Source: Actinomycetes bacterium (GTDB taxonomy: Bacteria > Actinomycetota > Acidimicrobiia > Acidimicrobiales > Aldehydirespiratoraceae). Taken from it: 38,369 nt of DNA. Below the pieces are notes generated by a model that saw only the letters and a program-made list of their open reading frames with translations, had not been told where the DNA came from and made no database searches. How positions within the stretch are numbered: position 1 is the stretch's first letter; each line of letters begins with the position of its first letter. The stretch spans positions 1 to 38,369 of the forward strand of contig JAJRXC010000064.1 of the NCBI GenBank assembly GCA_024276495.1, written 5' to 3'. The translations under genes were made by a program, and so were the position numbers. Below, piece by piece: positions 746-9,373 of this stretch.

Positions 746-2086
746 TCAGTCGTCTCGCTCGACCGCACCGCCGTACCCGTCGGTGCCCGAGGCACCCGCC
801 GCGGACCCGAGACGGTCGAGGGGCATGGTGTTGGTCGACGGTGTCGGCGTGAACTCCACCGGCAGGGCCTTCACGCCGCCGATGAAGTTCGAGCGCAGAT
901 ACTCGGCCGGGCCGACCGGATGGATGTCGGATAGCCGCTCGGCGATCCCCTTGAACATCAGCGCGATCTCCATCTTGGCGAGGTTGGAGCCGAGACAGAA
1001 ATGGGGTCCGCCGCCCCCGAAGCCGACATGGTCGTTCGGGTGGCGGGTGATGTCGAACGTCCACGGATCGTCGAAGGCACGCGGATCACGGTTCGCCGCA
1101 ATGTGCCACATGACGACCTTGTCGTCGGCCTTGATCTTCACCCCGCCGAGCTCGTAGTCCTGCAGCGCCTGGCGCCGGAAGTTGAGCACTGGCGTCGCCC
1201 AGCGCACGACCTCGTCGACCATCGTGTCGCGGTAGCGATCGGGGTCGCTCTTGTAGAGCTCCCACTGGTCGGGAAAGTCGAAGAACCCCTGCATGCCCCG
1301 GGTGACGGAGTTGCGGGTGGTCTCGTTGCCGGCGACGCACAGCAACAAGAAGAACATGTCGAACTCGATCTCGTCGAGCCCTTCGCCGTCGACGTCGGCG
1401 GACAGCAGCGTGGTGACGATGTCGTCGCCGGGGGTGTCTCGTCGTTCGTTTTGCAACGCGTTGGAGTAGGCGAACAGCTCACCGAACGCGGCCATCACGT
1501 CCTCTTCGCTCTTCGCGTAGTCGGGGTCGTCGGCGCCGATCATGGAGTTGGTCCAGTCGAAGATCTTCGATCGGTCCTCGAGCGGGATGCCGACCATCTC
1601 GGCGATGGCCTGCAGCGGCAACTCGGCCGCCAGCTGGGTGACGAAATCGGCTTTCCCGTCCTCACAGACCCGATCGATGATCATCTGGGTGCGGTTGTGG
1701 AGATAGTCCTCCAGCAGGTTGATCATGCGTGGGGTGAAGCCGCGGCTGACGATGCGCCGGTAGCGGGTGTGCTTCGGGGGATCCATCGACAGCATGAGCG
1801 AATCGTTCTGGAAGCTGTCGAGGTCGTCGGCCCGGTTGCGTTCCTGCATCTGGGTGCCGCCCTTGTTCGACGAGAAGATCTCGGCTTGCCGGTTGACCTC
1901 CTTCAGGTGTTCGAGTCGGGTGATGGCCCAGAACCCGGGGCCCATGTCGCCTTCGTCGATCCAGTGGATCCCCGGATCGGTCTCCCGGAGCTGTTCGAGC
2001 ATCGCGTGGTGCTCCTGGCGCTGGAACGCATCCATGTCCCAGAGGTCGACATTGTCCCAAACCGGTGCGTCGTCGTGAACCGTCAT
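746..2086 (-). CDS. Cytochrome P450 (CYP125/124/142-like)
   Basis: Heme monooxygenase of 446 residues, a normal bacterial soluble P450 length. Visible signatures: SMDPPKHTRYRRIVSRGF in the C-helix region, the I-helix oxygen-activation motif AGNETT at residues 252-257, the K-helix EVVR, and the heme-binding loop FGGGGPHFCLG with the axial Cys near residue 364. The ending FIGGVKALPVEF is typical of the actinobacterial CYP125/CYP124/CYP142 group that hydroxylates steroid side chains or branched lipids; the substrate here is inferred only. The start is the ATG at 2086, preceded by a purine-rich GGGGGAGCAGGAGAG. The open frame continues 23 codons upstream but without a ribosome binding site. The likely neighbours in transcription are the citrate synthase upstream (80 bp gap) and kynU downstream. 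No ferredoxin or reductase gene is in the window. Confidence 0.93.
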   Translation of the reverse strand: MTVHDDAPVWDNVDLWDMDAFQRQEHHAMLEQLRETDPGIHWIDEGDMGPGFWAITRLEHLKEVNRQAEIFSSNKGGTQMQERNRADDLDSFQNDSLMLSMDPPKHTRYRRIVSRGFTPRMINLLEDYLHNRTQMIIDRVCEDGKADFVTQLAAELPLQAIAEMVGIPLEDRSKIFDWTNSMIGADDPDYAKSEEDVMAAFGELFAYSNALQNERRDTPGDDIVTTLLSADVDGEGLDEIEFDMFFLLLCVAGNETTRNSVTRGMQGFFDFPDQWELYKSDPDRYRDTMVDEVVRWATPVLNFRRQALQDYELGGVKIKADDKVVMWHIAANRDPRAFDDPWTFDITRHPNDHVGFGGGGPHFCLGSNLAKMEIALMFKGIAERLSDIHPVGPAEYLRSNFIGGVKALPVEFTPTPSTNTMPLDRLGSAAGASGTDGYGGAVERDD

Positions 2087-2106
2087 CTCTCCTGCTCCCC
2101 CATATA

Positions 2107-2124
2107 CCTTCCCTGGAAGGAAGG
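2107..2124. promoter_or_regulatory. Inverted repeat upstream of the P450 gene
   Basis: CCTTCC, six bases, then GGAAGG, ending 20 bp before the P450 start codon. It lies in the gap between the citrate synthase stop and the P450 ATG. It could be a repressor site for the P450 or a weak RNA hairpin. No T-run follows on the minus strand, so a terminator is less likely. A short AT-rich patch (TATATG on the minus strand) adjoins it. Confidence 0.35.
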
Positions 2125-2166
2125 CTAGGGCGTCGCGGCCGGGGAAGGTAGTCAAGGATCACCGAT

Positions 2167-3294
2167 TCACGACGCCACCCCCACCAGCGGCGCCGGTCCG
2201 ACATAGCGGGCGCTCGGTCGCACGATCTTGCCGACACCGTGTTGTTCGATGATGTGGGCCGTCCAACCGATCGACCGGCTGACCGAGAACGTTGGGGTGA
2301 ACATCGCGCGGGGCAAGCCGGCGAGCTCGAGCACGACCGCGGCCCAGAACTCGACATTGGTGACGATTCGCTGTCCGGGCTTCCAGTCGGCGAGGACCGC
2401 GAGGATCTCCCGCTCGATCCCGGCCGCCCGGTCGACGAGATCGCCGCCGAGTCGTTCGGCCGCCTGCCGGAGAACCACGCCGCGGGGATCTTCGGCCCGG
2501 TACACGGCATGGCCGAACCCCATGATCTTGTCGCCGGCAGCCAGACGCGCCCGCACCCAGTCCGCGGCCCGGTCGGGCGTGGCGATCTCGTCGATCATCG
2601 AGATGCAGCGACTCGGCGCGCCGCCGTGGAGCGGACCGGTGAGCGCGCCGACGGCGGCGACCAGCGCCCCCGCCATGTCGGCGCCGGTGCTCGCGACCAC
2701 CCGGGCGGTGAAGGTCGACGCGTTGAATCCGTGATCGACCGTGGCCACGAGATACTGCTCGACCGCCCGCGCCTCGTCGACGCCGGGGGTCGTACCGGTT
2801 GCCATGCGGAGGTAGTCGGCGGCGTGGCCGAGGAAGGGATCGGGATCGAGGGGGGCCTCGCCGGCCCGACGCCGGTGATGTCGGGCCAGGATCGTCGGAA
2901 CGACCGCGGCGAGGCGCCGCGCGTCGTCGTCGATCTCGTCGGCGGTTCGGTCGAGCAGCGATCCGCGGCCCTCGAGGTCGGCCAACGCGAGCAGCCCGAC
3001 CCGCAAGGTCGCCATCGGATCGGCGACCCGCGCCGCGGTCAGGTCGACGAGCTCTCCGACGACGGGCGGCAACTCCCGCCGGGCACCACCGTCGACCGCC
3101 GGTTCCGCCGGTGGCAGCGCACCGCGCAGCTGAAGAGTCCAGACGTCTTCGAGGCTGCGGGTTCGAGCGAGCTCGGCGGCGTCGTGCTCTCGATAGTGGA
3201 AGAACCCCTCCTGCCCCCGAACACCTCCGAGCACGGTGTCGGCCACAGTCAGTCCCTTCAGACCGGGTGGGGCGATGAGCGGTTGTTCGGCCAT
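2167..3294 (-). CDS. Citrate synthase family protein (CitA-like; citrate or 2-methylcitrate synthase)
   Basis: Condenses oxaloacetate with an acyl-CoA, normally acetyl-CoA or propionyl-CoA; cytosolic. 375 residues, as in short bacterial type I citrate synthases. The two catalytic histidines are present: GPLHGGA (H223) and MGFGHAVYR (H262). The third catalytic position, usually Asp in NVDF, is Glu here: NVEFWAA (E315). I recall this variant from actinobacterial CitA-type paralogues but cannot check it. The C-terminus has the usual SRSIGWTAHIIEQ and RPSARYVGP. The start at 3294 is chosen for the GAGGAG ribosome site just upstream; the frame runs 44 codons further but into the operator region. 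It is divergent from a second, HTH-fused citrate synthase. Citrate versus methylcitrate cannot be decided from sequence; the nearby mutase genes make propionyl-CoA a fair candidate. Confidence 0.9.
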   Translation of the reverse strand: MAEQPLIAPPGLKGLTVADTVLGGVRGQEGFFHYREHDAAELARTRSLEDVWTLQLRGALPPAEPAVDGGARRELPPVVGELVDLTAARVADPMATLRVGLLALADLEGRGSLLDRTADEIDDDARRLAAVVPTILARHHRRRAGEAPLDPDPFLGHAADYLRMATGTTPGVDEARAVEQYLVATVDHGFNASTFTARVVASTGADMAGALVAAVGALTGPLHGGAPSRCISMIDEIATPDRAADWVRARLAAGDKIMGFGHAVYRAEDPRGVVLRQAAERLGGDLVDRAAGIEREILAVLADWKPGQRIVTNVEFWAAVVLELAGLPRAMFTPTFSVSRSIGWTAHIIEQHGVGKIVRPSARYVGPAPLVGVAS

Positions 3295-3353
3295 GGGGGT
3301 CTCCTCGAATCGGCGCGGGACGTCGACTCCCAACCTGCGCCATCGCGGATACA

Positions 3354-3391
3354 TTGACAACGTTGATCGACTCAACGTTGATTGAATCAAT
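3354..3391. promoter_or_regulatory. Repeat-rich operator/promoter between the divergent citrate synthase genes
   Basis: Two direct copies of CAACGTTGAT (3358-3367 and 3373-3382, 15 bp apart), each holding the 8-bp palindrome CAACGTTG, are followed by ATTGAATCAAT (3381-3391), an odd palindrome touching the ATG at 3392. TTGACA at 3354-3359 is a perfect -35; 17 bp on, GTTGAT (3377-3382) is a weak -10, so the plus transcript would start at or next to the ATG. The element is AT-rich against its surroundings and fills the space where a ribosome site would be. A regulator bound here would block the HTH-citrate synthase promoter and probably affect the divergent gene too. Confidence 0.55.
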
Positions 3392-4627
3392 ATGACGAGC
3401 CCCGCACCGACCCGGATCAGCGCCACCGAAGCGGCCGCACGTCTCGGGGTGAAACGCGAGACGATCTACGCCTACGTCAGCCGAGGGCTGCTCCACTCGC
3501 AACGCCACATCGACGGCAAGTCGTCCACGTTCGATCCCGACGAGATCGACCGCGTTCGCCGCCGCAAGGGAGACGACCGGCCGGGTCGGCTCGAGGTGCC
3601 GGTCACGTCGGGCATCACCGAAGTGACCGACGGACACGTCCACTACCGAGGCCACGACCTCACCGAGCTCGTCGAACCGGGCCACACCTACGAGGCGATC
3701 GCCGAGCTGTTGTGGACCGGCGAGCTCGCGACGACCGAACCGTGGCCGACCAACCGGTCGGTGTCGAACGCGGTCCGCCGAGCCGTCCGGGCCCTCCCGG
3801 CCCACGCCACCCCCACCGACCGGATGATGGCGGGGGTCGTCGCGGCCGGAGCCCTCGACCCGTTCCGCGACGACCGCTCCCTCGACGGTGCCACCGCCAC
3901 CGCCCGCCGACTCATCCGGGCCATCGTCGACTCGCTGCCCACCCACACCGAAACCGGCGGCGATCGGATCGCCGAACGGCTCTGGGTGCGCCTCACCGCG
4001 CGCGATCCCGCCGAGCAGGACCTCCTCGGCATCGCGCTCGTGGTCCTCGCCGACCACGGCATGGCCACCTCCACCCTGGCAGCCCGCCTCGCGGCGTCGA
4101 CCCGGGCCGGACCCCACGCGATCCTCCTCGCCGGGCTCGGCGCGGTTACCGGGCCGCTGCACGGCGCGGCGAGCCGCACGGTGCACCTCATGTTCGAGGA
4201 CGCCACCGCGCGCGGTGCCGACGCCGCCATCGCCGAGGTCATGCGCCGCGACGGAAAGCTGCCCGGCGTCGGCCACTTCATCCACCGAACCAACGATCCC
4301 CGCCACGACCTCCTGTTCGACGCCCTCGCCGACCGCCGAATCGACGAGGAACGCATGGACGTCGTCGCGTCGGTGGTCTCCCGCACCAGCGAACGGATTC
4401 CCGTCGCGCCCAATGTCGACCTCGCTCTCGGCGCCCTCACCTTCATCACGGGAATGAGCCACGACGCGGGCGAGGTCATCTTCGCGATCGCCCGCACCGC
4501 CGGCTGGATCGCCCACGCGCTCGAGGAGTACGAGGAGACCCCGATCCGCTTCCGGCCCGTCGGCCGCTATGTGGCCCGCCCTAGTCGCCCTCGCCGAGAA
4601 GCCGGTCGACCGCGATCGACGGGGTGA
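3392..4627 (+). CDS. Citrate synthase with N-terminal helix-turn-helix domain
   Basis: 411 residues. Residues about 7-55 form a MerR/excisionase-like DNA-binding domain: SATEAAARLGVKRETIYAYV gives the helix-turn-helix, followed by a wing and DPDEIDRVRRRK. Residues about 65-395 are a citrate synthase domain that starts with a repeated YRGHDLTEL-type lid motif. All three catalytic residues look intact: GPLHGAA (H257), GVGHFIHR (H295) and NVDLALG (D343). The protein may therefore be both an enzyme and a metabolite-sensing regulator, or a regulator that uses the fold to sense acyl-CoA or oxaloacetate; neither is shown. HTH-fused citrate synthases are, from memory, known in actinobacteria. No Shine-Dalgarno precedes the ATG; the operator abuts it. 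The 3' end overlaps meaB (convergent) by 47 bp, and the final 20 or so residues are Arg/Pro-rich and probably not part of the fold. Confidence 0.9.
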   Translation: MTSPAPTRISATEAAARLGVKRETIYAYVSRGLLHSQRHIDGKSSTFDPDEIDRVRRRKGDDRPGRLEVPVTSGITEVTDGHVHYRGHDLTELVEPGHTYEAIAELLWTGELATTEPWPTNRSVSNAVRRAVRALPAHATPTDRMMAGVVAAGALDPFRDDRSLDGATATARRLIRAIVDSLPTHTETGGDRIAERLWVRLTARDPAEQDLLGIALVVLADHGMATSTLAARLAASTRAGPHAILLAGLGAVTGPLHGAASRTVHLMFEDATARGADAAIAEVMRRDGKLPGVGHFIHRTNDPRHDLLFDALADRRIDEERMDVVASVVSRTSERIPVAPNVDLALGALTFITGMSHDAGEVIFAIARTAGWIAHALEEYEETPIRFRPVGRYVARPSRPRREAGRPRSTG

Positions 4628-5576
4628 TCTCACCGGCGAGAACCGCGGCCTCGATCCGGGCCCGGTGCTCGCCCACGGCCGGATCGGCGCGGAACCGGGC
4701 GACAAGCCGTTCGGTCAACAGCGTGTCCATCCACTGGAGTTGCTGCTCGCGCCGGCGGGTCGCCCGCTCACCCGACTCGGTCATCTTCGAACGATGCGAC
4801 TCGACGTGTCGCCAGAACTCGTCGATGCCGTCACCGGTCAACCCGGAACAGGTCAGAACCGGCGGGGACCAGTTCGGGCTCACCGGACGGAGGAGATGCA
4901 ACGCCCGCCGGTAGTCGCCGGCAGCCCGCGCCGCCCGCTCGACGTTGTCGCCATCGGCCTTGTTGACCGCCAGCAGGTCGGCGAACTCGAGTACCCCCTT
5001 TTTGATGCCCTGGAGCTCGTCGCCGGCGCCGGCGAGCATCAACACGGCGAAGATGTCGACCATGCCGTGGACCACGGTCTCGGACTGCCCGACCCCGACC
5101 GTCTCGACGATGACGACATCGTGGCCCGCGGCCTCCAGCACCAGCATCGCCTCACGGGTCGCCCGGGCGACACCACCGAGCGTGCCGGCCGACGGAGAGG
5201 GTCGAACGAACGCGTGGTCGTCGACCGCCAGGTTCGGCATGCGGGTCTTGTCGGCCAGGATCGAACCGCCGCTGCGCGTGCTCGACGGGTCGACCGCCAA
5301 CACGGCGACCCGATGGCCCTGCGCGGTGAGAGTGGTGCCGAGACGGTCGATGAATGTCGACTTGCCGACGCCCGGCACCCCGGTGATGCCGACCCGGTGG
5401 GCTCCCCCGGTGTGGGGAAGCAGTCGTTCGAGGATTCGACCGGCACGGGCCCGATGTTCGGGGCGGGTCGATTCGACCAGGGTGATCGCCCGGCCGATCA
5501 TCGCACGATCGCCCTCGCGAACCCCCGCGACCAGCGCGTCGTCGTGGATCTCGTCCTCGTGCATTTCTGCCGACAT
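4581..5576 (-). CDS. meaB: Methylmalonyl-CoA mutase-associated GTPase MeaB
   Basis: G3E-family P-loop GTPase that gates adenosylcobalamin loading and protects methylmalonyl-CoA mutase. Visible: Walker A GVPGVGKST (about residues 66-74), DPSSTRSGGSILADKTRM (switch region), ETVGVGQSE (G3 region), and VNKADG for base recognition. 331 residues from the ATG at 5576, the usual length. An in-frame ATG at 5609 would overlap the divergent gene at 5601, and the -10-like TAACGT eight bases before 5576 supports the shorter form. The mutase subunits it serves lie 0.8-5 kb upstream on the same strand, separated by two plus-strand genes, so meaB has its own promoter. It overlaps the HTH-citrate synthase tail to tail. 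Confidence 0.95.
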   Translation of the reverse strand: MSAEMHEDEIHDDALVAGVREGDRAMIGRAITLVESTRPEHRARAGRILERLLPHTGGAHRVGITGVPGVGKSTFIDRLGTTLTAQGHRVAVLAVDPSSTRSGGSILADKTRMPNLAVDDHAFVRPSPSAGTLGGVARATREAMLVLEAAGHDVVIVETVGVGQSETVVHGMVDIFAVLMLAGAGDELQGIKKGVLEFADLLAVNKADGDNVERAARAAGDYRRALHLLRPVSPNWSPPVLTCSGLTGDGIDEFWRHVESHRSKMTESGERATRRREQQLQWMDTLLTERLVARFRADPAVGEHRARIEAAVLAGEITPSIAVDRLLGEGD

Positions 5577-5584
5577 CGTCGCTG

Positions 5585-5594
5585 ACGTTACCGT
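5585..5594. promoter_or_regulatory. Interlocked divergent -10 elements (meaB / SnoaL-like gene)
   Basis: In a 24-bp gap, the plus strand carries TACCGT (5589-5594) six bases before the ATG at 5601. The minus strand carries TAACGT (5590 down to 5585) eight bases before the ATG at 5576. The two hexamers share the bases at 5589-5590. Both starts would be leaderless or nearly so, and the two directions should compete for polymerase. Confidence 0.5.
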
Positions 5595-5600
5595 CTGGCC

Positions 5601-6083
5601 ATGGCCCACGAACGAGCAGAGATCGAAGCAACCATCCAGCGCTACCTCGAACTACGGCGCGCCGCGATCGCCGGGGAGATTCCATGGCGCGATCTCAAGG
5701 AGGTGTTCACCGACGATGCCGTGTTCGTCGACTCGGTCTGGGGCCGCCATCAGGGCGTCGACGCGCTGGTGGAGTTCCTCGACAACTCCATGGCCGGCCT
5801 CGAGTCGTGGGACTTCCCCCACTTCTGGGAGGCGATCGACGGGAACAAGGTCTTCTTGCGTTGGAGCAACCGCCTTCCCGGCACCCGTCCCGACGGCAGT
5901 CCCATCGACAACATGGGGATGTCGTATCTGGAGTACGCGGGCGACGGAAAGTTCTCCTATGAGGAGGACATGTACTCCGAAAGCCACCTGATGCAGGCCA
6001 TGCAACAAAGCGACTGGTCGCCGAGCGACGACATGAACTTCCCGCCGGCCGATCGCGACTGGGTGTCGCGGCCGACCCCATGA
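5601..6083 (+). CDS. SnoaL-like / NTF2-fold protein
   Basis: 160 residues with the pattern of the SnoaL/NTF2 cone fold: an N-terminal helix EIEATIQRYLELRRAAIAG, then FTDDAVFVDSVWGRHQGVDALVEFL, then strands ending in YLEYAGDGKFSYEEDMYS. Proteins of this fold include isomerases, dehydratases, cyclases and non-enzymes, so the reaction is unknown. Its ATG is six bases after TACCGT, suggesting a leaderless transcript. The stop overlaps the start of the next gene (ATGA), so both are made from one mRNA. The pair sits between meaB and mutB on the opposite strand; a link to CoA-ester metabolism is only positional. Confidence 0.8.
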   Translation: MAHERAEIEATIQRYLELRRAAIAGEIPWRDLKEVFTDDAVFVDSVWGRHQGVDALVEFLDNSMAGLESWDFPHFWEAIDGNKVFLRWSNRLPGTRPDGSPIDNMGMSYLEYAGDGKFSYEEDMYSESHLMQAMQQSDWSPSDDMNFPPADRDWVSRPTP

Positions 6084-6381: not shown

Positions 6382-8523
6382 TCAGTCGAGGCGGTCGAGC
6401 AACTCGGCCGCCGCGTCGGCGATGACCGTGCCGGGCGGATAGACGGCGACCGCGCCCATCTCCATCAGGGTCGGCACGTCGTCGGGCGGGATCACCCCAC
6501 CGACGGTGATCAAGATGTCGGGGCGTCCGAGCCGGGCCAGTTCGTCGCGCAGCTCCGGCACGAGGGTGAGGTGGCCAGCGGCGAGCGACGAGACGCCGAT
6601 CACGTGCACGTCCGCCTCGACCGCCTGCCGGGCGACCTCACCGGGGGTCTGGAAGAGCGGCCCGATGTCGACATCGAACCCGAGATCGGCGAACGCGCTC
6701 GCGATCACCTTCTGCCCGCGATCGTGGCCGTCCTGGCCCATCTTCGCGACGAGGATCCGTGGATGACGACCGTGGCGCGCCGCGAAGGTCTCGACCCTCG
6801 TTCGTATGGCGTCGACGGCTTCGGAATCGGCTCCCATCTCGGTTCGGTACACCCCTCCCACGGTTCGAATCTCGGCGACATGACGACCGTAGACCTTCTC
6901 GAGGGCGTCGCTGATCTCCCCGACGGTCGCCTTCTCTCGGGCCGCGTCGATCGCGAGGGCCAAGAGGTTGCCTTCGCCGCGAGCGGCGGCCTCGGTGAGC
7001 GCGGCCAGCGCCGACTCGACCGTCGCGGGGTCGCGCTCGGCCCGGAGCTGTTCGAGCTTCGCGATCTGCAACGCCCGGACCTCTGCGTTGTCGATCGTGA
7101 GAACGTCGATGTCCTCGTCCTCGTCGAGGCGGTAGGTGTTGACGCCGATGACGGCCTGACGGCCCGAGTCGATGCGCGCCTGTGTGCGGGCAGCCGCCTC
7201 CTCGATGCGCAACTTCGGGATGCCCGCTTCGATCGCGGCGGCCATCCCTCCCATCTTCTCGACCTCGACGATGTGGGCCCACGCCTTCTCGGCGAGCGCC
7301 CCGGTCAACCGCTCGACATGGTGGCTTCCCCCCCACGGATCGACCGGCCGGGTCGTGCCGCTCTCTTGTTGGAGGAAGAGCTGGGTGTTACGGGCGATGC
7401 GGGCCGAGAAGTCCGTCGGTAGTGCGAGCGCCTCGTCGAGGGCGTTGGTGTGCAACGACTGGGTGTGGCCCTGGGTCGCGGCCATCGCCTCGACACAGGT
7501 TCGCGCGACGTTGTTGTAGACGTCCTGGGCGGTGAGGCTCCAGCCGCTGGTCTGGCTATGGGTTCGCAGGGACAGCGACTTCGGGTTCTGCGGATCGAAC
7601 TGCTTCATCAACTTCGACCAGAGCAAACGGGCGGCCCGGAGCTTGGCGACCTCCATGAAGAAGTTCATGCCGATGCCCCAGAAGAAGCTGAGTCGGGGAG
7701 CGAACGCGTCGACGTCGAGGCCGGCCGCGATTCCGGCACGGACGTATTCGACACCGTCGGCGAGCGTGTAGGCGAGCTCGAGATCGGCGGTCGCGCCGGC
7801 TTCTTGGATGTGATATCCGGAGATCGAGATCGAGTTGAACTTCGGCATCTGCTCACTGGCGAAGGCGAAGATGTCGGAGATGATCCGCATGCTGGGGGTC
7901 GGCGGGTAGATGTAGGTGTTGCGGACCATGAACTCCTTGAGGATGTCGTTTTGGATGGTCCCCGCCAGCTGGGCCGGCTTCACTCCCTGCTCCTCGCCGG
8001 CGACGACGAAGAGGGCGAGGATCGGCAGCACCGCCCCGTTCATCGTCATCGACACGCTCATCTCCTCGAGTGGGATCCCATCGAAGAGTTGGCGCATGTC
8101 GAGGATGGAGTCGATGGCCACTCCGGCCATGCCGACGTCGCCCGCGACCCTCGGGTTGTCGGAGTCGTAGCCGCGGTGGGTCGCGAGATCGAACGCGACG
8201 GACAGGCCCTTTTGTCCGGCGGCCAGGTTTCGGCGGTAGAAGGCGTTCGAGGCCTCGGCGGTGGAGAAGCCGGCGTATTGTCGGATCGTCCACGGCTGGT
8301 TGACGTACATCGTCGGGTAGGGCCCTCGAAGATACGGCGGCAGCCCGGGCAGGGTCGCCGGGAAGTCGAGGTCGGCGATGTCGTCGGCGGTGGTGAGGGC
8401 CCGAACACCGATGCCCTCGGCCGTTTCGGTGACGATGTGGCGCAACGGCGCCGGCGCGGGATCGATCGGCGCGCGGTCGCTCGACTCGAAGGCGACCGTC
8501 GAGAAATCGGGGATCACGCTCAT
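6382..8523 (-). CDS. mutB: Methylmalonyl-CoA mutase large (alpha) subunit
   Basis: Adenosylcobalamin enzyme interconverting (R)-methylmalonyl-CoA and succinyl-CoA; it channels propionyl-CoA from odd-chain fat, Val, Ile or sterols into the TCA cycle. 713 residues, full length. The TIM-barrel part has [12 protein letters not shown] with the catalytic Tyr near residue 83 and [12 protein letters not shown]. The C-terminal cobalamin domain has GQDGHDRG (D598-x-H600-x2-G603), the lower axial His motif, then GVSSLAAGH and the GGVIPP loop. The start at 8523 is chosen because TACGGT ends six bases upstream; the open frame extends further but into the divergent gene's territory. It is separated from mutA by a plus-strand gene, so it is probably transcribed on its own. 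Confidence 0.97.
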
Positions 8524-8529
8524 GGGTCC

Positions 8530-8535
8530 ACCGTA
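8530..8535 (-). promoter_or_regulatory. -10 element of mutB (TACGGT, leaderless)
   Basis: TACGGT on the minus strand, then six bases, then ATG at 8523: the same hexamer and spacing as at kynU. It overlaps the small palindrome CCGTACGG (8531-8538). It gives mutB a promoter independent of mutA. Confidence 0.5.
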
Positions 8536-8665
8536 CGGCGTGGCTCGACATGACCAAACCGAGCGGGGCGCACCGGCTACCTTCGACGTCGAACCGGGCA
8601 CCGACAGCGAACCAGGACGCAGCCGCCCGCCCGGTCCCGCCCCCGATGAGATGATGTGACGCGCC

Positions 8666-9373
8666 GTGTCCTCCCTTTTCGAACGATCACCACAGGGTTT
8701 CGTGCGCCGCGCGATCGTGGCCGTCGGCGCCCTCGTCGTTGTCGTCATCGCCGGCGTCGTGGCGCTGAGCGGAGGACAAGACGGTGGCGGTGGCGGTCGC
8801 CGATCCGACGACGTCGATCGAGCAACGGCGCCGGCGAGTGCCGCGCGGTCCGACGAGGCTCCGCCCGCGACCGAGGTGACGAGCGAGCCCGCCCCGACGA
8901 CGCCTCCGACGGAGCCGGTCCCGGGTCGCGAACCGCCGATCGTCCTCCATCCGTGCGACGTGGTCCCCGCCGACGACGTCCGCTCGGCGACCGGCGTCGC
9001 CGGTTCGAGCACCCGCCTGGTCGACGACGAGCCGCGCAAGGTCTGCGACTATCGGGAGATCGACGGCGACGCACCGATCGTCGTGCTCGAAGCGGGTCGT
9101 GACCGTGACGCGGCGAACCTCCTCGAGGAGTTCCGCAACCGGCAGGCCGATGCCTCGCAGGTGATTCCGCTCGGGTGGGGAACCGAGGGAGAGATCCGGG
9201 TCACCGCCGACCAGGTCTCCGTGTGGTCCTACGTGGTCGACGACGACCCGCTCGGCCGAGACCTCTTCGTGCAGTTGACGATCTCCAACACGGCGGACCC
9301 CGGCCGGTTCACCGAACCGATCGAGGTGCTGGCCGAGCAGTTGCGCGACGCGCTCCTCGCGGCTCGTCCGTAG
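8666..9373 (+). CDS. Membrane-anchored exported protein, DUF3558-like
   Basis: 235 residues. Residues about 12-35 form one hydrophobic segment after a basic stretch ([16 protein letters not shown]), so the protein is a signal-anchored extracytoplasmic protein. A Gly/Ser/Thr/Pro-rich linker follows to about residue 90. The folded part opens with [16 protein letters not shown] and has a second Cys in [10 protein letters not shown], a pattern like actinobacterial DUF3558 lipoproteins where the two Cys may pair; there is no lipobox here. Function unknown. The GTG start at 8666 is the best available, with only a weak upstream signal. It sits between mutA and mutB on the opposite strand, 25 bp from the mutA stop. 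Confidence 0.75.

Follow-up and report, generated by a model that had tools for sequence, protein, structure and literature searches.

A helix-turn-helix–citrate synthase fusion as a putative one-component regulator, and the conserved motif upstream of its gene

The divergent citrate synthase pair and its intergenic repeats

We analysed a stretch of 38,369 nucleotides (nt), hereafter the window, which comprises contig JAJRXC010000064.1 of an Actinomycetes bacterium from the Aldehydirespiratoraceae (Acidimicrobiia), and we concentrated on a pair of divergent citrate synthase genes. The plus-strand gene (P0001, 3392-4627) encodes a protein of 411 amino acids in which a helix-turn-helix (HTH) domain is joined to a citrate synthase domain; this protein, hereafter the fusion, is the proposed regulator. 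The minus-strand gene (P0002, 2167-3294) encodes a CitA-type citrate synthase of 375 amino acids, hereafter the companion, which is the presumed target, and the two genes are separated by a gap of 97 base pairs (bp; 3295-3391). An initial annotation, made from the sequence of the window, had already described this divergence, as well as a MerR-like HTH fused to a citrate synthase with its three catalytic residues intact, and these claims were borne out, coordinates included. Pfam placed HTH_17/MerR_1 at residues 10-57 and Citrate_synt at residues 72-388 of the fusion, and an alignment showed H257, H295 and D343 to be present. The companion, identified by Pfam and by alignments, has Citrate_synt as its sole Pfam domain and carries Glu in place of the catalytic Asp. 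The winged HTH of the fusion, as defined by Pfam, an HTH-only model and conservation, covers residues 9-57 (3416-3562, plus strand) with the heptapeptide YAYVSRG at residues 26-32, and the citrate synthase domain (3605-4555, plus strand) holds H257, H295, D343, R304, R368 and R388. Citrate_synt has three matches in the organism's own genome, namely this pair and one high-scoring gene on another contig.

The gap carries a repeat array that spans 3357-3391. The sequence CAACGTTGAT occurs at 3358-3367 and 3373-3382 as a direct repeat with a 15-nt period, and ATTGAATCAAT lies at 3381-3391, directly 5' of the fusion ATG; the two repeats and the further one abutting the start codon had all been pointed out from the start. 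Expressed in terms of the motif shared with other loci (see below), the array consists of a perfect TCAAYRTTGAT core, TCAACGTTGAT (3372-3382), a second core, ACAACGTTGAT, which matches at 10 of 11 positions and lies 15 bp from the first (3357-3367), and an additional half-site, TCAAT, that abuts the fusion ATG (3387-3391); no strand is assigned to these sites. CAACGTTGAT is found twice in the 38-kb window against 0.05 expected occurrences, and two occurrences were reached by 0 of 100 shuffles. A motif search of the 4.33-Mb assembly returned the perfect core once, at 3372-3382. The shuffles, the conservation across loci and the single genomic copy together rule out a chance origin of the repeats. 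No Shine-Dalgarno-like sequence is visible before the fusion ATG in the window, and this, together with the array abutting the ATG, suggests that translation of the fusion is leaderless.

Conservation and genomic distribution of the motif

Fifty loci that encode relatives of the fusion were found by scanning species genomes; they come from Acidimicrobiia, Streptomyces, Jiangella, Rhodococcus, Mycobacterium and other groups. The fusion N-terminus was present in 46 of 51 loci, the window included, and these formed the discovery set. Five loci with the N-terminus outside the locus (L011, L038, L041, L044 and L047) were left out of the counts of upstream cores, as was L091, in which no high-scoring segment pair reached the N-terminus and which had an 11/11 core in the shuffle-test scoring. 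A match was also found in 16 plasmid records (alpha- and betaproteobacteria and two actinomycetes), eight of which were examined. Two of these eight annotate a 'citrate synthase family protein' whose gene diverges from that of a citrate synthase, so that the gene itself is already annotated under this database label. A companion-like gene lies upstream on the opposite strand in all 46 discovery loci by a lenient criterion (40 bits, within 1500 bp). L057 was counted as having no companion, based on a partial tblastn match, though a divergent citrate synthase is annotated in its record.

What the loci have in common is a single TCAAYRTTGAT core; in most cases a further TCAA half-site comes after it, at a distance that varies. 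In 77 of 83 loci (45 of 46 in the discovery set, 25 of 29 in the held-out set and 7 of 8 from plasmid records), the 200 bp upstream of the fusion contain a core of at least 10/11. Control windows inside the same genes, which are coding DNA and unmatched in base composition, contained such a core in 0 of 245 cases and a 9/11 core in one. In a composition-matched test, each of the 25 held-out loci with a score of 10 or 11 was equalled by 0 of 100 shuffles. Since the motif was derived from the discovery loci, the held-out set constitutes a fair test; its best DNA identity to the discovery loci was 86.9% over at least 500 bases, so it contains no near-copies, and 6 of its 29 loci belong to one family (f31) and 14 to another (f24). 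With a stricter pattern of 16 positions, in which the spacing of the outer half-site is fixed, 36 of 44 discovery loci scored 15-16, and each of these was equalled by 0 of 100 shuffles. When each core had to reach only 9/11, a pair of cores spaced 14-16 bp apart was found in 20 of 84 loci, including loci from Rhodococcus and Streptomyces. A first search (6 of 10 loci) had suggested that only a few Acidimicrobiia have the double repeat, a view that this count overturned. As regards the suggestion that orthologous pairs should carry the same repeats, the core is indeed conserved, and the double arrangement seen in the window is limited to those 20 loci.

It is also evident that the core is kept upstream of fusions for which no companion was detected, both in genomes (L070, L072, L073, L093 and L125) and in plasmid records of Variovorax, Nonomuraea and Paraburkholderia (L060, L061 and L063). 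In one genome (G075, locus L086) there is no core near the fusion; the operator stays at the divergent promoter of the companion, separated from the fusion gene by a gene of the beta-lactamase family (L122, about 2034-3123). Taken over all loci, the presence of the site is tied more closely to the fusion gene than to the companion, an argument for the fusion protein as the reader of the site.

To judge how specific the motif is, we searched 296 Actinomycetota genomes. A model of the N-terminal part of the fusion has a match in 32 of them, among these the organism's own genome; in one (G146) the match is weak and partial. The core with its outer TCAA was found in 25 of the 32 fusion genomes versus 28 of the 264 fusion-free genomes (Fisher p 1e-15). 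The reversed pattern had no match in the 32 fusion genomes and was present in 10 of the 296 genomes as a whole. The 32 fusion genomes contained 27 matches to the pattern, 26 of which lie at the fusion/companion locus. Together with the single copy in the own genome, this argues that the motif, judged by its distribution, is a local operator and not a global box. The matches in the 28 fusion-free genomes are perhaps background, or reflect composition or other functions. Five of them (L128-L132) were checked by tblastn, and no relative of the fusion or of the companion was encoded there; the match in L128 lies inside a frame that by eye resembles an ABC-transporter gene.

One genome of the same order (G113) has a second operator-like site (L124, 2232-2249; G113:C1:133731-133748) upstream of a gene for a family III CoA-transferase; a SpoU methylase gene that points the other way is next to this site. 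The CoA-transferase gene is a candidate for an extra target.

Promoter layout and regulators reported in Streptomyces

In many Streptomyces loci the core, read towards the companion, is TCAATATTGACA, followed after about 16 nt by TRGACAGT. A -35-like TTGACA hexamer lies inside the operator in these loci, a -10-like TRGACA follows after the spacer of about 16 nt, and the core lies further upstream of the fusion gene. In the MerR superfamily, operators lie within a -35/-10 spacer that is longer than usual; the spacer of the presumed companion promoter in Streptomyces looks to have about 16 nt. The sites of the window abut the fusion ATG and the Streptomyces core runs into the -35-like TTGACA of the companion, which makes repression by occlusion the likeliest mode of action; on the position of the sites, the fusion probably acts as a repressor. 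The Streptomyces layout would also suit activation, with the fusion bound upstream of or over the -35 box of the companion, since the core overlaps this presumed box at some distance from the fusion gene, and relatives of MerR are often activators. In the window, activation of the fusion gene from sites that abut its ATG is hard to envisage, and we regard an activating role as possible and somewhat doubtful.

In several Streptomyces loci (L010, L014, L022 and others) a conserved block, TTGATTCGACTGTCCATGCTTGA, stands beside the operator on the companion side, over the presumed -10 of the companion, and it resembles the published MtrA site of S. coelicolor, TTGACTTAACTGTCCA. In the accessible part of that study, MtrA is described as binding a site between citA3 and citA4 (SCO5831/5832), at -16 for SCO5832 and -92 for SCO5831 relative to the transcription start site, and both genes are higher in an mtrA mutant at late time points (PMC12323332). 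These positions fit the above reading of the Streptomyces promoters if SCO5832 is the companion, as we infer. RspA1 is likewise reported to bind the promoter regions of the divergent S. albus genes slnwt_1427/1428, the transcripts of which fall in the mutant (PMC7411085). Judged by layout alone, both are presumably the same divergent pair as that of the window. They are published as citrate synthases under MtrA or RspA1, and neither gene is named a regulator in the accessible text (PMC12323332, PMC7411085); SCO5831 is termed citrate synthase-like in the corresponding parts of three other papers (PMC9739823, PMC8981147, PMC7324645).

The binding of MtrA and RspA1 to these promoter regions is what would be expected if the operator belonged to another, global regulator, in which case the fusion HTH would merely decorate an isozyme or act elsewhere. 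We find this improbable. A global regulator should have many sites, yet the own genome has a single perfect core, and all but one of the pattern matches in the fusion genomes are at the fusion/companion locus. Moreover, the motif accompanies the fusion in two phyla, even at loci that lack a detected companion, and the S. coelicolor MtrA site, as far as the source gives it, resembles the block that adjoins the core of other Streptomyces and not a sequence within the core (PMC12323332).

A citrate synthase fold as a putative sensor

With regard to the DNA-binding part, the HTH of the fusion scored 25.6 bits against MerR_1 (cut-off 21.6) and 28 bits against HTH_17 (cut-off 27). Among 34 fusions from two phyla, mean conservation was higher in the HTH (0.69) than in the citrate synthase core (0.62), and the most conserved 7-mer of the protein was YAYVSRG (99.6% mean conservation), which sits in the recognition-helix region. 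An AlphaFold2 model of the fusion (mean predicted local distance difference test score, pLDDT, 86.8) has a winged HTH, connected to a citrate synthase fold by a linker of low confidence. It superimposes on 1a59 with a Z score of 35.9 and a root-mean-square deviation (rmsd) of 3.4 over 340 residues, and 2-methylcitrate synthases are among its best structural matches. The model of the HTH alone (pLDDT 78.4) matched Xis, SoxR and BldC with a Z score of 8.0, which is borderline trustworthy on this scale, and an rmsd of 1.7-2.4. A Foldseek search with the HTH-only model gave nothing at E<=0.001 (best 0.003, RacA), and phmmer returned a single match to the HTH, at E 0.13. The Pfam matches are therefore firmer evidence for the HTH than the structure matches. 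BldC, which has 68 residues and no enzyme domain, is reported to read AATT-containing direct repeats (PMC5859096); the TCAAYRTTGAT core contains no AATT element. The fusion HTH resembles the MerR-like winged HTHs of BldC and Xis in fold (Z about 8) and in having no classical MerR coiled-coil dimerisation helix: in the model, the helix ends at residue 60 and is followed by a linker (62-69, pLDDT<50) and then by the citrate synthase domain.

In the citrate synthase domain, the two catalytic His were present in 52 of 52 fusions each and the catalytic Asp in 51 of 52, while Arg was found at each of three ligand-site columns in all 52; the roles of H257, H295, D343 and the ligand-site residues are those established by citrate synthase biochemistry. 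Among the companions, all 47 aligned sequences have Glu at the position of the catalytic Asp. This replacement also occurs in two PDB sequences aligned to the companion, 8gmf (M. tuberculosis CitA) and 2c6x, the latter being the best PDB match of the companion, named Citrate synthase 1, which we take to be B. subtilis CitA. In a tree built from the citrate synthase parts, 30 fusions and 25 companions were split by a branch with 100/99 support, and the fusions stood on longer branches than the companions; the tree has one outgroup row, a long one, and its root is unsure. The split rules out a recent tandem duplication of the pair.

The catalytic residues and the three ligand-site arginines, kept in nearly all of the 52 sequences, and the 2-methylcitrate synthases among the structural matches also speak for a true trigger enzyme, that is, a working (methyl)citrate synthase that would regulate in addition, with turnover as the signal. 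The genes adjoining the pair in the window, by eye MeaB-like and methylmalonyl-CoA mutase-like, are in line with this. The longer branches of the fusions point the other way. The fusion also stayed below the NCBIfam enzyme cut-offs (best 149.1 bits versus 421.3 for TIGR01800), a result that weighs little because the companion fell short as well (330.7 versus 332 for its best model). In Caulobacter, CitB and not CitC complements E. coli gltA, the paralogues having neighbouring locus numbers, according to the accessible text (PMC7083601). This would favour a sensor over an enzyme if CitC is the HTH fusion; the main text of that paper does not contain 'helix-turn-helix' and uses 'DNA-binding' once, of CtrA. 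On balance, a trigger enzyme appears possible and somewhat doubtful.

The best reading of the comparative data is that the fusion would be a dedicated, mostly single-locus one-component regulator with the citrate synthase fold as its sensor. The architecture, the conserved predicted operator, its co-occurrence with the fusion and the retained active site are all found by comparison of sequences. We consider it likely that this regulator binds TCAAYRTTGA-type sites and controls both itself and the divergent companion, ligand-relieved repression being the likeliest mode. As to DNA binding, dimer pairing, sign and ligand, we infer the following mechanism. The winged HTHs would be paired through the citrate synthase dimer and would in this form bind the sites in the fusion's own intergenic region, through which the bound protein would control its own gene and that of the CitA-type citrate synthase. 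Occlusion of both promoters would mean repression, and the citrate synthase pocket would sense oxaloacetate, an acyl-CoA or citrate, so that the ligand would alter the affinity for DNA and relieve repression. The autoregulated divergent layout proposed in the initial annotation is well supported by comparison, the footprint being present across two phyla, near single-copy and kept where no companion was detected, and binding itself is predicted. That the protein may be a sensor-enzyme responding to oxaloacetate or acyl-CoA, as was also proposed, is consistent with the near-invariant active-site and ligand-site residues.

Several observations weigh against this reading. Besides the unmatched composition of the in-gene control windows, the 8 remaining discovery loci of the 44 scored with the 16-position pattern reached only 11-13 and were equalled by 0 to 27 of 100 shuffles, four of them by more than 10. 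The outer TCAA starts 0-8 nt after the core, and in 4 of 77 loci there was none within 13 nt. No core of at least 10/11 was found within 200 bp upstream in 6 of 83 loci (L045, L058, L068, L069, L086 and L092), the best being 9/11 in L092 and L058 and 8/11 in L045. L068 and L069 are solo fusions of one family with neither a detected companion nor a core, and they stand beside a CobW-like gene (identified by Pfam for the L068 region and by eye for L069). The longer pattern was missing in 7 of the 32 fusion genomes (G013, G023, G028, G087, G118, G146 and G193), three of which (G013, G028 and G087) still have a core of 10-11/11 (L072, L073 and L078). In the fusion-free genomes the true pattern (28 of 264) is commoner than the reversed one is over all genomes (10 of 296), and this excess is unexplained. 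A scan of the window gap for sigma-70-type promoters recognised none, and another regulator, MtrA, is reported at the S. coelicolor intergenic region (PMC12323332). Finally, the half-sites of the core lie close together for two winged HTHs, which puts the stoichiometry in doubt.

The pair has further neighbours in the window. A cytochrome P450 gene (749-2155, minus strand) lies directly downstream of the companion, and homologues that are 72-85% identical occupy the same place in L001, L005, L007 and L050; the P450 gene may be part of the regulated operon in some Acidimicrobiia. Convergent with the fusion gene, with a 47-bp overlap, is a gene (4581-5609, minus strand) that by eye encodes a MeaB-like GTPase and has homologues in nine loci, and beyond it lies an open reading frame (6382-9039, minus strand) that by eye is methylmalonyl-CoA mutase-like. 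The latter two genes hint at propionyl-CoA metabolism.

Regulators of comparable design are known. MocR/PdxR proteins carry a GntR-type winged HTH on an aminotransferase fold and are often autoregulated and divergent from pathway genes. The fusion is like them in having a winged HTH on a metabolic-enzyme fold and differs in that the HTH is of the MerR type and the effector domain has a citrate synthase fold in place of an aminotransferase fold. In B. subtilis citR-citA, studied by Jin and Sonenshein, a regulator gene is likewise divergent from a CitA-type citrate synthase gene, but CitR is reportedly of the LysR type and without a citrate synthase domain. In the trigger enzymes PutA and BirA, as presented in the available text, one chain is both an enzyme and a repressor of its own pathway (PMC6978683); they involve other enzymes and other DNA-binding domains, and the fusion might have a dual role of this kind. 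A search of the open-access literature, mostly by title and opening of the abstract, found no paper on a transcription regulator with a citrate synthase domain, which is a weak negative; a search on M. tuberculosis CitA likewise came back empty.

More tentatively, and with somewhat less than even confidence, these proteins may form a widespread class of transcription factors that use a catalytically competent citrate synthase directly as their sensor. Such a factor would read the supply of oxaloacetate/acyl-CoA, perhaps through turnover, and act on one divergent locus by way of its own operator, the conservation of which extends from Acidimicrobiia and Streptomyces as far as alpha- and betaproteobacteria. 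If the proposed regulator is real, the entry to the tricarboxylic acid or methylcitrate cycle would be controlled by a protein that senses through the enzyme fold of the pathway itself. In the accessible literature, such genes in Streptomyces and other genera have so far been treated as citrate synthases. Binding, ligand and sign are directly testable in laboratory streptomycetes, since the predicted operator is short, conserved and near single-copy.

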